Positions 36,621-45,730 of a stretch of DNA of 64,000 bases are shown here, in pieces. The DNA comes from Rhodobacteraceae bacterium Alg238-R152 (GTDB lineage: Bacteria; Pseudomonadota; Alphaproteobacteria; Rhodobacterales; Rhodobacteraceae). The translations under genes and the position numbers were made by a program. Position 1 is the first letter of the stretch. Every line of letters starts with the position of its first letter. The DNA is taken from contig UNRJ01000005.1 of the NCBI GenBank assembly GCA_900537125.1, forward strand, positions 62,001-126,000, given 5' to 3'. The notes under the pieces are model-generated. The model was not told the DNA's origin. It worked only from the letters and a program-made list of their open reading frames with translations, and ran no database searches.

Positions 36621-38267
36621 TCAGGCCTGTTCTGATGACCGCCCCTCTTTGGCGATTATTGATATAAGCTCCCGCTTTCGGAAGGGCTTGCTCAAAAAAT
36701 CATCCATCCCGGCGTCCAAGCTTGCATCAATGTCACTCGGCTGCGTGTTGGCAGTCAGCGCGATGATCTTACACGCTGTCCGGTCAGCACCTCTTTCAAA
36801 AGCACGAATTTGCCGGGTAGCGTCCAAACCGCCCATCACCGGCATCAGCAGGTCCATTAAGACAACATCCCATTCGCCCCCCTCATATGTCTGAACGGCC
36901 TGCTGCCCATCCTCGACAAACACCAAATCCGCGCCAGCAGGGGTCAGCATTTTTTTCACCACCAATTGATTGGTCTTATTGTCTTCCGCCACCAGCACTT
37001 TGAGGCCCTGTAACGAAGGCAGCGCCTCGCCGTCCAGTGCGGCGTGTTTGGGTGACACAACAAGTTCAAAATCCAATTGTGGCGGGCGGTCCTCGTTGTT
37101 TGGTGAGGGAGCACAACACGGCGGTGCCTGTACGTCTTGATCCTCCGCAACCGGGAGATCCAAACACACTTTGAAGGTGGCTCCATTCCCCCGCGTGCTC
37201 TGCACCGAAATCTTCCCGCCCATGCGCTCAACCACCGCCCGCGTGATTGCCAGTCCCAGCCCTGTGCCTTCCTCGCGCTGCATCTCCGGCCGATCCACCT
37301 GCTCAAAAGCCGAGAAAACCATCTCCTGATCGTTCGGCGCGATACCAACACCCGTGTCAGAGACAGCTATTCGCAGAGGCAAAGTCGCTCCCGGTTCATA
37401 GGCCACGTGAATACGGACATGCCCCTCTGAGGTGAATTTGATGGCGTTGCCGACAAGATTAAGAACCACCTGCCGCACCCGCGTACCGTCCCCAACAAAG
37501 GCGTCAGGCACGTTCGGCAGGTAATCTTCCAGCAGATCCAACCCTTTGGCCTCAGCCCGCGCGCTCAACAAAGTGATGGTTTCCGAAATCAAACTGCGCA
37601 ACGAGAACGGCGCAACATGCAGTGAGATTGTCTCAGATTGAATTTTGGAGAAATCCAGCACGTCGTTCACAATCTCCAAAAGCGCGTTGGCCGAGTTAAA
37701 AATCGTTTCAGAAAAAAGCCGTTGCTGGTCATTCAATGCGGTTTCCCGCAACAATTCACACATCCCCATAATGCCATTCATCGGTGTGCGGATCTCGTGG
37801 CTCACATTGGCTAAAAACCGATCTTTCGCCTGCACAGCTTGCTCTGCGCGCTCCTTGGCAACTCTGGTCAACTCCAAGGCATCATCGCGCTCTCTCATGG
37901 CGGAGACATCCATAGAGGAGCCAACCAAATAGGCCAGCGAGCCATCTTCGTTAAACAAAGGGCTGAGCGTGGTGCGCATAAGGGCAACATTGGCGCCTTT
38001 GGGGATTGGCACCTCATAGGTCACCTCCTCCGCCTGGGCCACGACGTTCAAATGGTGCGCCAACCCGCGTTGGCCAACCACGCCGCCAAATACTTCAAGG
38101 GCGGTTTTGCCAACCACTTGATCCAGAGTGACCTCCGCATATTCCAACGCAGGTTGGTTCGCAGCCACATATCGCGGCATACCGTCGTCGCACACTTCAA
38201 GCACAAACACAGAAAAGGCGATCGAATCCAACAGCGCAAACGGATTGATCTGCTTGTTTTCCTGCAC
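36621..38267 (-). CDS. Hybrid sensor histidine kinase, copy 1
   Basis: A 548-residue soluble hybrid kinase. An N-terminal PAS-type domain (residues about 13-125) is followed by a short coiled linker and a HisKA domain with the phospho-accepting His157 in [10 protein letters not shown]. An HATPase follows with N274 (LVGNAIKF), DTGVGIA (304-310) and GTGLGLA (334-340). A C-terminal receiver domain has EDN (429-431), phospho-acceptor Asp472 and Lys527. No membrane segment or HPt domain is present. The neighbouring kinase has the same layout and register. Its partner HPt and output regulator are not in the window, so it may act through a distant phosphorelay. Confidence 0.93.
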
Positions 38268-38608
38268 AGTAGTCCCCTTGATACGCCACTCCCTTTGACC
38301 GTCGCCGTTAAAGGAAGCTTATTATTGTCGCCCCACACATTTGGGAGGCACCGGAAGTCACTTCTGGTGTTATTGAAGAACGCCACGCCAACAATGTCGC
38401 CTCAAGACACCCCACCATACCCGACCAGACATCTGCTGACAGATCTTTGCCGTTCCGTCACAAACTCACAGCGTTTGGTTAATAAATTCTAAAATCCGAA
38501 TAGGTGCAAGCGGCGCTTAGGCGCACGCATATACGACTTTTGGTGTAGTCGCGTAACAAACGTCTTGCCCTAATACGCAATCCCCAAAACGCAAAGACAT
38601 CGCGCCCC
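38268..38608. other. Intergenic region between the two kinases
   Basis: This 340-base gap contains promoter-like AT-rich sequence for copy 1 and no open frame with a ribosome site. A partial CtrA-like site (TTAA-N7-TAAA at 38479-38493) is present but deviates from the consensus in the second half, so I would not call it. No terminator for copy 2 is obvious. Confidence 0.4.
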
Positions 38609-40210
38609 TCACCACTCAATCATCGAGATCAGTTCCCTTTTGCGAAACGGCTTGCTCAAGAAGTCATCCATGCCCGCCGCCATACAGGCTTCCGCGTCGC
38701 TGGGTTGCGCATTGGCAGTCACAGCAATGATTTTGCAAGCAGGTCGGTCAATATCCTTCTCATAGGCGCGAATTTGCCGGGTGGCTTCAAGCCCTCCAAG
38801 CACCGGCATCGACAGATCCATCAGGATTAAATCACATTCCCCGGCCTTATAGGCGTCTACCGCCTGTTGCCCGTCTGGCACAAACTGCAAGTCCGCGCCG
38901 GTTGGCCCCAGCATCTTGCTGATCACCAATTGGTTAACTCGGTTGTCTTCAGCCACCAATATTTTCATACCGTCAAGCACACTTCCAGCGTGTTCCTTTG
39001 ATGTAGATTGCCCCGCTACGACCTCCATCGGAGGATAAGACGCAATCATTAGCTCCTCCATGTCAGGAACCTCAGCAATCTCTTTGGCAACCGGAAGACC
39101 AAGGTGAACTGTGAACGTTGTCCCTTCTCCCAACGTGCTGTCCAACGCAATCTTGCCGTGCATGCGTTCCACAAGTGCTTGAGAGATGGTTAGTCCCAAC
39201 CCGGTGCCGTCTTCCCGTCGTGTGGCAAGCTTGTCAATTTGCTCAAACGCCGAAAATACACCGTCGATTTCCGACTCTGCGATCCCATGTCCAGTGTCCT
39301 GTATGGCAATTTGCAACGGCCATTGTTCTGCCGCTGGATCAAACGATACCCGCACGTCAATTTGGCCCACGTCCGTGAATTTGATCGCATTTCCAATAAG
39401 ATTCAACAGAACCTGCCGAATGCGGCTGGCATCTCCAACAAAATTGGGGGGCACAGTTTCGGCGTAGTCAATGTGAATTTTCACCCCTTTGGCTTCCGCG
39501 TGGATGCTCAACAACGTCGCAATTTCTGTGACCAATCTGCGCAGTGAAAACGGCGCATCATGAATGGACAGCTTGCCCGCCTGAATTTTTGAGAAATCCA
39601 GAACGTCATTGATAATGTCCAAAAGCGCATTGGCAGAGCTGGAAATTGTGTCCGAATACAGCTTCTGCCGTTGATTCAAAACTGTCTCTCTGAGCAGCTC
39701 GCACATGCCAATAATGCCATTCATCGGCGTGCGAATTTCGTGGCTCATATTGGCCAAGAACTGCTCTTTGGCTTTGTTTGCCTGTTCTGCTTTGGTCTTG
39801 GCAACGCGTGTCAAGGCAAGCGCCGCATCCCGCTGGCGCTCCGATGTGACATCCGCAGAGCTTCCCAACATATGAGAAAGCGTACCATCTTTGTCAAAAA
39901 TCGGGGTCAGTGTGGTGCGAATATCAAGCGTGTTGGCGGCAAAGGGGAACGTGATTTCGTACGTTGCCTCCTTACCGCTTTCGATGACGGAAAGATGTTT
40001 CGCCAAGGCCCACTCCCCCGCGGGTCCTCGAAAGATTTCCGCAGCGGTTTTACCTTCAACAAACGCCTGGTCCACCTGCGCCGTTGTCCGGGCAATCCGG
40101 TTCATCATCACGTATCTCGGAAGCCCATCTTCAGCCACTTCAAGCACAAAGATACCCATCTGCACGTCTTCCAAGAACGCAAATTCATCAAGCTTATCGC
40201 TTTTACGCAC
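38609..40210 (-). CDS. Hybrid sensor histidine kinase, copy 2
   Basis: A 533-residue paralogue of copy 1 with the same PAS-HisKA-HATPase-receiver layout. I start at a GTG ([17 protein letters not shown]) that has GGGAAAA six bases upstream. That choice aligns it with copy 1 residue for residue up to His157, so it is better supported than the TTG 33 bases upstream. Phospho-acceptor Asp465 and Lys520 are present, with N-box LIGNAIKF. The two differ mainly in the linker before the receiver (390-415). It is likely a gene duplication; the PAS sensors have diverged more than the catalytic core. Confidence 0.9.
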
Positions 40211-40467
40211 GTCTTTTCCCGTTACATTTAAGCCCGATGGCAACAGGCGGTTAAACTCTTCCTCAAATTATTTCGAACTGGTTACCGAAATCTTTAGTCC
40301 GCTGCCCGAAGCCCAATCTCAGCGGAGGCCCCGCTTTCTGCGGCACGTTGGGACACACGAACCCATTGATAAAACTATCAACGACGTATCAAAGCTGCGT
40401 CAAGAAATTTGAGATGGCAGAACAGCTTGCCGTTAACGATTACACGCACAGCGCGCAATTCCACCTC

Positions 40468-42091: not shown

Positions 42092-42967
42092 ATGTGGAAA
42101 GTCTTTGTCCTGATGTTTGTCGCCATGTCGATGATCCCCGCCGGGGACACCGCGGGCAAACTCATGACCCAGAGCCACGGCAGCAGCCCCTTATTTGTCG
42201 CGTGGTCCCGCTTCCTGCTCGGAAGCCTGATTGCCCTGCCACTTGTGCGTCCCGACACCCTGCGCCTGCTCTCGAATTGGCGTATCTGGTTGCGCGCTGG
42301 CCTGCTCACCGGGGGCATCACCTGCATTCAAATTGCCCTGCAATCCACTCCCCTCGCAGACGTCTTTGCCGCTTTTTTCATTGGCCCTCTGTTTTCTTAC
42401 CTGCTCTCTGTGCTCTTGCTTGGGGAGCGCGTCACCCGCACCCGCAGCGCTCTCATGGGGGTTGGCTTCCTCGGCGTGATGCTGGTGGTTCGCCCCGGCT
42501 TTGAGATGTCGCCCGGCCTGCTCTGGGCCCTCGCCGCTGGCCTGTTCTACGGTGCCTTCCTCACAGCCTCACGATGGCTTGCGCCAATCGCGCGCCCCGG
42601 GAGCCTGCTCTTCACCCAGCTGTTTCTTGCAGCGGTGATGATGACGCCGTTCTGCCTGGACCAAGTCCCACCGATGACACCAACCCTCGCTGGCCTAACC
42701 ATCACCAGCGCGATTTTATCGATGGGCGGGAACTTCCTGTTGCTGTTTGCCTACGCCCGCGCCGAAGCCGCCGTGCTTGCGCCTTTTGTTTACCTGCAAC
42801 TTGCCAGTGCCGTGGCGCTTGGCTGGCTTGTCTTCAACGACCTGCCAGACGTCTACACCTGGCTTGGCCTCAGCCTCATCATAACCGCAGGCCTCACGTC
42901 CGCCCTGCTGTCAAAAATCAGAACCGGCGCTCCACACCAACCTGCACCCCAACGGAATCATAGCTAA
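42092..42967 (+). CDS. EamA-family (DMT) membrane transporter
   Basis: A 291-residue, ten-helix drug/metabolite exporter of the EamA family with two repeats (about 1-135 and 145-285). DTAGKLMTQSHGSSPLFVAWSRFLLGS is the usual first-repeat pattern with a charged Arg, and LLFAYARAEAAVLAPFVYLQLASAV that of the second repeat. Its 3' end overlaps the convergent outer-membrane gene by 50 bases. Substrate is unknown. A second EamA gene lies about 8 kb away but is not obviously a recent copy. Confidence 0.88.
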   Translation: MWKVFVLMFVAMSMIPAGDTAGKLMTQSHGSSPLFVAWSRFLLGSLIALPLVRPDTLRLLSNWRIWLRAGLLTGGITCIQIALQSTPLADVFAAFFIGPLFSYLLSVLLLGERVTRTRSALMGVGFLGVMLVVRPGFEMSPGLLWALAAGLFYGAFLTASRWLAPIARPGSLLFTQLFLAAVMMTPFCLDQVPPMTPTLAGLTITSAILSMGGNFLLLFAYARAEAAVLAPFVYLQLASAVALGWLVFNDLPDVYTWLGLSLIITAGLTSALLSKIRTGAPHQPAPQRNHS

Positions 42968-44180
42968 AGGCATCAATATCACTGTTTCCACGTTCAAGAT
43001 CGATTTGGAAGTACGGCGTATAGGCCCCCGCAATGAATAGGTCAGACCGTTCCACCCGCAGGCTGCCACCATAAATCATCTCGTCACGATCCGCTTGGAA
43101 TGCCGCACTTGGGTTCATAAAATCCTTGTGCCGCAGGAACAGTCTTGGTCGAAGTGTCCATCCATTGCGCACATCCACCGTGGAATACACACTCCACTCA
43201 TAGGTCTGATACGCTTGGGTCTCCTCATCGGTGTCCCGACGCTCATATGCCAGTTCTGTACCCACCACCGCGCGTCCACCTACGGAGCGCCGAAAGCCTG
43301 CCATGGCGCGCAGATTGTCGCCGTCCAGCCCACTGTTGAGATGATTGTCCACCTGCGCATAAGACAAACGTCCGTAGGCCGATCCCCCCAACAAGCTACG
43401 ACGTTCACCAACCACTTCGAGACCAAACTGATCTTCATAATGCCGCCCGGCATACCGCCGCGCAGTGGCAAAGGCTGCAAAAGACGTAGTGGCTTTTTGC
43501 GATAGACGTCGCAAGCCAAACTTGCTGCTCAATTGCAAATCATCATACCGACGCCCTTCCGCTTCCAGAAGATCAAAGCCAAAACTGGCAAACCCAACTG
43601 TATTGGAATTTGGACCGCTCATGGCCCCAAACCCACGACGAAAATTCATGCGCCCATTGGCTTTGATCGCAGGCACGCGTTCCACCGGACGGTCATAGCT
43701 AAACGGCAAAACCAGCCCACCCACATCCAGATCTACGGTTTCACTGTCATAGGCCCGCGTGTTGCCAGCAGTGGTGAACCCGATGGATAAATCCCAATCA
43801 AACCCGCGTCGCGCATCAATCTGACGAATGAAAGCCAACACCGTCGCGCGTACCGGTTCGGGCAAATCGCCAGACAGCACCCGGAAAAACTCTTCACGTG
43901 ACCGCGCCCATTGCTCAGCCATGAAATACGCGCGCGCCAATTCCAGACGCACGCGTGTCAGTTTTGGATCTTCTGCCAGAATGGATTGCAGCACTGGAAT
44001 GGCCACTTCAGGCTGCCCTGCTTGCAACGCTGCCATCGCATAGTCAAACGCGACCTCAATTTCGACCACCTGTTGAGGCACCGAAGTAGCTTCAGCCTTT
44101 CGTGCCCCGCCAAAAGTGAGAGCCACACAGACCAGCGCCAAGGCGCCAAGTTTTAGACCGGATTGAAGCAGCGAAGCCAT
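42918..44180 (-). CDS. Slam-like surface lipoprotein assembly modifier (DUF560)
   Basis: A 420-residue outer-membrane protein. A signal peptide (about residues 1-31) precedes a short helical TPR-like region (about 40-125, FDYAMAALQAGQPEVAIPVL...LARAYFMAEQWARSREEFF). The rest (about 130-420) alternates aromatic and polar residues as in a beta-barrel and ends in ERRF, with the terminal Phe that BAM recognises. This architecture is that of Slam/DUF560 proteins, which translocate certain lipoproteins to the cell surface. The gene upstream encodes a lipoprotein with a TbpB-like C-terminal motif, the typical substrate. The gene is read after it, 77 bases apart. This fits a Slam substrate pair. Confidence 0.85.
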   Translation of the reverse strand: MASLLQSGLKLGALALVCVALTFGGARKAEATSVPQQVVEIEVAFDYAMAALQAGQPEVAIPVLQSILAEDPKLTRVRLELARAYFMAEQWARSREEFFRVLSGDLPEPVRATVLAFIRQIDARRGFDWDLSIGFTTAGNTRAYDSETVDLDVGGLVLPFSYDRPVERVPAIKANGRMNFRRGFGAMSGPNSNTVGFASFGFDLLEAEGRRYDDLQLSSKFGLRRLSQKATTSFAAFATARRYAGRHYEDQFGLEVVGERRSLLGGSAYGRLSYAQVDNHLNSGLDGDNLRAMAGFRRSVGGRAVVGTELAYERRDTDEETQAYQTYEWSVYSTVDVRNGWTLRPRLFLRHKDFMNPSAAFQADRDEMIYGGSLRVERSDLFIAGAYTPYFQIDLERGNSDIDAFSYDSVGVQVGVERRF

Positions 44181-44257
44181 TTTAGCATTTCCTGATTTCT
44201 GGAATGTGACAGGGCCCTAACCGAAATACCGGTCCCAGGCCCCGCCAGATCTCTGCG

Positions 44258-45181
44258 TTAGTCTTTTTTCTCAGCGCCGAAGGCACCGATGTAGGTCATA
44301 GCCCCGTTCAACTCGAAGGTGCCACCCACTTCACTTGCATCATCGCCATAAAAGTTGCCCTCGGCCACGCCGGTTGCACCAGCGGTGGCTGCCCCGGTAC
44401 CAGCCAGGTTCGCAGAAAAGCCATTGCCACTGATTGTGCCGGTGCCGGCAAAATTGAAGTGATTGGCCAACCACTGATTGCCCCCTTCAAGATTGCGCGC
44501 TGTGGTGTTGCCACTTGCGATCGTGACATTGGAGAAGTCTGATGTTTGGATCTGGATGTCAGATTCAACGACAAGGTCCCGTTGATCGGATGTGACAAGC
44601 AATCCAACCGAGTTCCCACGATACGTTGCCGCGCCGCTGTCAGGAACATCCGCTGCGGCGGTCCTGTTACCAAAGCTGCCAACACCCACGCGGCCGTCAG
44701 TCGTGCCGATACCTGTGACCCACATGCCATACGACTGGTGGTCGAAGTCCAAAGCAATTTCATTGCCCAAGAAAGCTCTTGTGCGGCGATCCCTGGAGGT
44801 GCCAACAATCGTCAACCGGCGACCGTTGTCGTATTCAATGTCGCCGCCCTCGGATTCCCGGATATGCGTGGTGCCGTTTTCGTCGACAAACCGCATTCCC
44901 TCGTTGACACCCAGGTTGGAACTGAGCCGCACAGTTCCATCGGCCGTCGCTCCAAGCGTGCCAACGGAGACCCGGCCGTCGCCATCGGTAGAGACGCTTG
45001 CACCGCGCGTGCTGCCATCCAATGTGGTCTCGCCGTGCACGAGGAACAAACGATCCCCTGCGGTCTCGTTGACCCGCTTTCCGATCTCATCTTCGACAAA
45101 GGATTCAATTGTGCTTTTGCAGCCCGCGATTGACAGCAATGCCCCGATTGTCACCATGGTTTTGATAGAAGTATTCAGCAT
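44258..45181 (-). CDS. Lipoprotein with TbpB-like beta-barrel C-terminus, likely Slam substrate
   Basis: A 307-residue lipoprotein with lipobox LSIAGC (Cys21). After a short linker it consists of repeated Gly/Asp/Thr-rich beta-strands. The last ~37 residues (271-307) contain the motif GNFYGDDASEVGGTFEL, which is the hallmark of the TbpB beta-barrel (TbpBBD/PF01298-type) domain shared by transferrin-binding protein B, fHbp and other Slam substrates. The adjacent Slam-like gene supports this. The rest is not recognisable as a haem- or transferrin-binding domain, so the ligand is unknown. No iron-responsive box was identified in the promoter by eye. Confidence 0.82.
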   Translation of the reverse strand: MLNTSIKTMVTIGALLSIAGCKSTIESFVEDEIGKRVNETAGDRLFLVHGETTLDGSTRGASVSTDGDGRVSVGTLGATADGTVRLSSNLGVNEGMRFVDENGTTHIRESEGGDIEYDNGRRLTIVGTSRDRRTRAFLGNEIALDFDHQSYGMWVTGIGTTDGRVGVGSFGNRTAAADVPDSGAATYRGNSVGLLVTSDQRDLVVESDIQIQTSDFSNVTIASGNTTARNLEGGNQWLANHFNFAGTGTISGNGFSANLAGTGAATAGATGVAEGNFYGDDASEVGGTFELNGAMTYIGAFGAEKKD

Positions 45182-45730
45182 TTTCTTGTACCCGTATGAA
45201 GTCCATTTCCTTGGTCAGAGAAGAGCGCTGATCTAAGTTGGTTCCCCACCGGCTCACTCTTGCAATCCAACCAAAACGGTTTTCCTTAACGTGCGGTTTC
45301 GGCAATATTTACGGGGCATTAAGCGACCTTAGGTCTCTAAAATTTGAGGGGCATGCCGCAAAAATGCAGAAAAAATGCGCACATCACAGCACAGATAATT
45401 CAGTAAAGCTAAGATGAAGAAAGACGCCGCCGCAGGCACAACCGCCCCAAAAACAAGACTTTCTTTTGAGCGAAGAACAGGCGATTTAAATAGTTCAAAA
45501 ACGCGCGTAAGGCGGGCAAACTTTAGGTCTTGCTAACAATTGTCCGTTAGCGTCATTTTTAAGAAAACACCACTTCTTCAAATTGCGCGTAAACGGCCCA
45601 ATTTGGACGTGTTTCCTGCCTATGAAACACCGCGGTTTTTGCTTGAAAGACACAGAATCACCGCCCCTCCTGGGAGCAGTTGTAGGCCATATACAGCTTC
45701 AGCGGAGGCTGCCTATCAGGCCTATTCAAC
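45182..45730. other. Long non-coding stretch upstream of the lipoprotein gene
   Basis: About 550 bases separate the lipoprotein start from the end of the mazG-like gene; both genes lie on the minus strand. The region is AT-rich by the standard of this genome and holds an inverted repeat GCTAAC-N8-GTTAGC (45532-45551). It should contain the promoter of the lipoprotein-Slam pair and possibly a long leader. I see no ORF with coding character and no recognisable riboswitch. Confidence 0.5.

Follow-up and report, generated by a model that had tools for sequence, protein, structure and literature searches.

A Slam-type translocator adjoining a TbpB-like lipoprotein in Shimia: a probable two-gene type XI secretion module with a second, unlinked candidate cargo

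The question raised by this locus was whether two neighbouring minus-strand genes, read in an earlier note as a translocator and its substrate in a Roseobacter-type genome, constitute a surface-display system, and what such a system would present. The window, that is, the whole stretch of 64,000 nucleotides analysed, comes from a genome that by sequence is that of a Shimia species, and the same-site relatives of the gene pair found in the database were Shimia as well; the Roseobacter-type description was thus correct. The features considered are the following:

45182..45311, minus strand, non-coding leader/promoter region of the cargo gene (from conservation across Shimia)
44258..45181, minus strand, predicted Slam cargo lipoprotein, 307 aa (from PF01298, AlphaFold model and fold matches)
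44181..44257, minus strand, intergenic gap between cargo and Slam genes, 77 bases (from ORF coordinates)
42918..44180, minus strand, Slam/DUF560 translocator, 420 aa (from PF04575, TPR_19, AlphaFold model and PDB folds)

The positions and spacing given earlier for the two open reading frames were borne out. The lipoprotein gene comes first and the Slam-like gene second, the 77-base gap is consistent with a single transcript, and both order and strand were unchanged in the Shimia relatives carrying the pair at the same site, between EamA and ruvB. The culturable species S. marina and S. sagamensis are among those that have the pair. At this site, the 3′ end of the Slam-like gene overlaps a convergent EamA transporter gene (42092-42967) by 50 bases, and upstream of the lipoprotein gene lie a MazG/PRA-PH-like gene and then ruvB-ruvA-ruvC (names taken from the sequence, MazG also from a Pfam search). 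Neighbouring genes at 36621-40243 (minus strand) resemble hybrid sensor histidine kinases, two to three tandem paralogues of which were found by tblastn at the same site in other Shimia.

The Slam-like protein scored 33.1 bits (E 5.6e-8) against PF04575 SlipAM, for which the cut-off is 22 bits, and TPR_19 (E 9.7e-9) and TPR_14 were also above their cut-offs, so that the expected DUF560 match for the barrel protein was significant. The score against PF24575 TPR_Slam (25.9 bits) was under the cut-off of 35.2. A signal peptide covers about residues 1-36, and the chain ends in ...VERRF, with a terminal Phe. In the AlphaFold model (mean pLDDT 90.2), a helical TPR part (about residues 36-123) was followed by 14 long strands forming a barrel (126-418), in agreement with the TPR region plus barrel proposed from the sequence. 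OmpG and CymA, both 14-strand barrels, were the closest PDB folds (Z about 20-21); there was no solved Slam among the matches listed, so the likeness is to 14-strand barrels other than Slam, and a single-sequence PDB search with the protein returned nothing relevant. Judged by profile and model, the protein is a member of the Slam/DUF560 (T11SS) family with a predicted role in lipoprotein transport.

Regarding the lipoprotein, a lipobox was read by eye as SIAG/C21 with Lys at +2, and its Cys was invariant across 26 relatives. The motif GNFYGDDASEVGG, the TbpB-type motif noticed earlier near the end of the protein, starts at residue 275, 33 residues before the C terminus. The score against PF01298 TbpB_B_D was 45.7 bits (cut-off 26) over residues 179-305, and that against NCBIfam slam_lipo (NF041636) was 42.9 bits, under the cut-off of 80. 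In the AlphaFold model (pLDDT 89.7), the lipidated Cys is followed by a charged helix (22-41) and a beta-rich handle (about 49-139), and the C-terminal half forms an 8-strand barrel; the profile match and the small barrel were the two things to be looked for in this protein, and both were found. The best fold match was the C-lobe of TbpB (VIA), with Z 17.4 and 18% identity over 200 residues, in residues 53-307, which covers nearly all of the mature chain. Hemophilins HphA (Z 15.2) and Hpl (Z 14.9), the C-terminal barrel of NHBA (Z 14.9) and factor H binding protein were also among the matches. The earlier remark that the lipoprotein's body is unlike a transferrin or haem receptor therefore held for the single-sequence PDB search, which returned nothing relevant, but not for the fold, in which TbpB lobes ranked first; a profile built from the 26 relatives reached TbpB chains in the PDB by sequence as well (E 1.4e-11). 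The modelled body is a single TbpB-type handle-barrel lobe, resembling both TbpB lobes and hemophilins. Compared with TbpB/LbpB proteins, defined by two such lobes and an adjacent TonB receptor gene, the 307-aa model has one lobe and the neighbouring genes include no such receptor. The cargo does show the lipobox, C-terminal TbpB-type barrel and adjacent Slam gene of a Slam-dependent surface lipoprotein, with NF041636 under its cut-off.

Both genes recur in other species, where they evolve under purifying selection, and are thus not chance open reading frames. In comparisons of close species, the cargo had a dN/dS of 0.04-0.08 and Slam one of about 0.07; for the window against the nearest relative the values were 0.19 and 0.11, respectively, these last being rough ratios with dS near saturation. 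The cargo changes fastest, as its identity to the nearest relative was 54.5%, compared to 84-94% for the flanking genes. The pairwise dN/dS values (0.04-0.19) gave no whole-gene evidence that the cargo is under positive selection. Moreover, the leader (45182-45311) was 74-85% identical to that of five other Shimia, compared to 56-61% for the cargo coding DNA and 45-55% for the next 130 bases upstream, and it contains the palindrome AAAACnGTTTT. An RNA element was not supported for this region, as an Rfam scan of the locus gave no match, the leader folded no better than shuffled sequence (z 0.78) and compensatory pairs were absent from it; a regulatory DNA element is therefore the likely reading.

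Among 25 Shimia species genomes, Slam was matched in 11, one of them by a remote match only (G249, 19% identity) and another by a fragment (G258). The PF01298 cargo was present in nine species, all nine Slam-bearing, and was absent from every Slam-less genome of the sample. This co-occurrence gave a Fisher p of about 5e-6 (with the remote match in G249 not counted as Slam), a value overstated because the species are related and the co-occurrence is partly shared descent. The Slam gene lay at the EamA-ruvB site in eight species, in one of which, G261, the contig ends inside it. In G257 and G258 the site was empty, with EamA, MazG and ruvB directly contiguous in the former and EamA and ruvB in the latter, and Slam was located elsewhere in both genomes.

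The analysis was extended to 247 genomes of the family, where PF04575 was found in 85, PF01298 in 42 and both in 29 (29 of the 42 cargo genomes; Fisher p 6e-7), and in 15 genomes the two were no more than 3 kb apart. The other 13 of the 42 genomes had a TbpB_B_D match without a PF04575 match; in these, the TbpB_B_D proteins may travel otherwise, or the Slams may be too divergent to detect. A total of 33 loci with a Slam of the window's type were examined, not all of them independent since several came from one MAG (L170, L171 and L178), and in 28 a cargo was detected by HMM no more than about 1 kb away, which in three Ruegeria loci (L160, L162 and L163) was on the opposite, divergent strand. 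Among the five remaining loci, two (L170 and L174) had an upstream lipoprotein that by eye resembles a degenerate cargo, and a third (L168) had a transposase-like gene in the cargo's place. Beyond the pair, no Pfam family recurred more than three times among 84 sampled ORFs of related loci. In a tree of 54 Slam proteins, the window's clade comprised 32 rows (support 100/99), and all the DUF1194-linked Slams formed a separate clade of 10 rows (support 100/98); a scan of loci from the window's clade turned up no DUF1194 gene.

The host genome itself had one PF04575 protein and two PF01298 proteins, and the genome search found no second Slam. The second TbpB_B_D lipoprotein (L008:8957-9841, contig C8) sits between nitrile-hydratase genes and purA, neighbours named from the sequence, and occupied the same site in seven Shimia species, all of them Slam-bearing. 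Copies in G254 and G261 were interrupted by stops, so this cargo is not always kept. The AAAACnGTTTT motif of the window's leader was not found upstream of it. Identity between the two cargoes was 50% in the barrel, 21% in the handle and 63% in the last 37 residues, a pattern that fits a barrel acting as shared export signal and a handle acting as the specific part. The single Slam of the genome probably serves this second cargo too. It is rather unlikely that a route other than this Slam displays or retains the second lipoprotein: its lack of linkage to Slam and the 13 family genomes with TbpB_B_D alone would fit such a route, but its restriction to Slam-bearing Shimia, the resemblance of its barrel and last 37 residues to those of the window's cargo and the lack of another Slam in the genome argue against it.

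The export steps may be carried over by analogy from Neisseria, where Slam1, with help from Skp, works as an autonomous translocon that takes unfolded TbpB across the outer membrane (PMC9090332). The Shimia cargo would be exported by Sec and lipidated at Cys21, and Lol would then bring it to the outer membrane, still unfolded. Slam would recognise its C-terminal barrel and pass it through the 14-strand barrel, with folding taking place outside. The lipoprotein would end tethered on the outer leaflet, with the variable handle domain as its binding part.

As to what would be bound, the absence of a TonB receptor gene nearby favours an attachment or binding role without import over the uptake of haem or transferrin. 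The earlier observation that no TonB receptor is adjacent was correct, and a single TonB-receptor Plug domain was matched in the whole genome, on a different contig from the pair. That the cargo is instead a hemophilin-type binder of haem or another iron source, which passes the ligand on to a TonB receptor from another locus, is improbable. The fold matches to HphA, Hpl and TbpB given above are what such a binder would show, and published Roseobacter cargoes have been called haemophilin-like in architecture (PMC12282271). Against it stand the lone, distant Plug domain, the lack of a recurrent neighbour family among the 84 sampled ORFs and the failure of an Irr-box search to find any match within the window. 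Furthermore, most relatives have Tyr in place of His148 of the cargo, and the EYxxFG motif around this residue is shared with TbpB and so looks structural. Very improbable, finally, is a reading in which the two genes adjoin for some other reason, the Slam-like one encoding an ordinary porin or other outer-membrane channel with periplasmic TPR and the lipoprotein being oriented towards the periplasm. This reading draws on the likeness to OmpG and CymA and on surface display being a prediction. It is opposed by PF04575 above its cut-off, an adjacency that persists despite changed sites and flipped orientation, the missing cargo in all Slam-less Shimia and the presence in the cargo of a TbpB-family barrel, which known Slam substrates share.

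Overall, the translocator-substrate pairing proposed from the sequence is supported by the family matches, the modelled folds, the adjacency and the co-occurrence in relatives. The gene pair is very probably an ordinary, self-contained type XI secretion (Slam) module, of which cargo surface display, service to the second cargo and a binding role are predicted parts. Counted against this reading were the slam_lipo and TPR_Slam scores under their cut-offs, the 13 of 42 family genomes with TbpB_B_D and no PF04575, and the stops in the second cargo. A more specific version is offered tentatively, as slightly short of an even chance: a receptor-free two-gene module whose Slam is shared with an unlinked cargo at its own conserved site, with exposed parts that diverge and a ligand that has nothing to do with iron or haem.

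The description of Slam-lipoprotein pairs across Proteobacteria dates from 2017 (PMC5449769), that of Roseobacter cargo-Slam loci from 2025 (PMC12282271). Like the Slam1-TbpB or cluster 1 T11SS pairs, the Shimia pair joins a translocator of TPR plus barrel to an adjoining lipoprotein with a C-terminal 8-strand TbpB-type barrel; unlike them, it has no adjacent TonB receptor and only a short TPR part, and it scores under the cut-offs of TPR_Slam and slam_lipo. The marine cluster 3 T11SS locus of Roseobacteraceae carries ThyX, glyoxalase, DUF1194 and cargo, and in marine Roseobacters cluster 3 Slams are rarely beside the usual barrel cargo, DUF1194 proteins being proposed as alternatives (PMC12282271). 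That locus shares with ours the host family and a lipoprotein cargo (282-375 aa) with an 8-strand barrel, but the window's Slam falls in another clade by tree, cluster 3 being a network grouping of that study, and the window's locus lies between EamA and MazG-ruvB. The DUF1194 genes of the host genome were on contigs C1 and C4, none beside Slam. Two of them are adjacent to each other beside a thymidylate-synthase-like gene (L009:7613-9132, contig C1), with no Slam near, and in other Roseobacters DUF1194 genes adjoin a different Slam type that is absent from the host genome. The likeness to the hemophilin/HphA hemophores, in turn, is a match of handle plus 8-strand barrel in fold only, the window's cargo differing in being lipidated, in having no adjacent receptor and in offering no identified haem-site residues.

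The window's pair is a further Slam-lipoprotein example, set apart in the tree from the DUF1194-linked clade, in a minimal two-gene form and with a probable second cargo. Within its clade, Slam nearly always has a barrel cargo adjoining, in this same minimal form and at varying chromosomal sites. One Slam with two cargoes, alike in their barrels and unlike in their effector parts, represents a simple non-pathogenic system for Slam-cargo recognition, and the Shimia pair also offers a way to learn what marine bacteria display via Slam.
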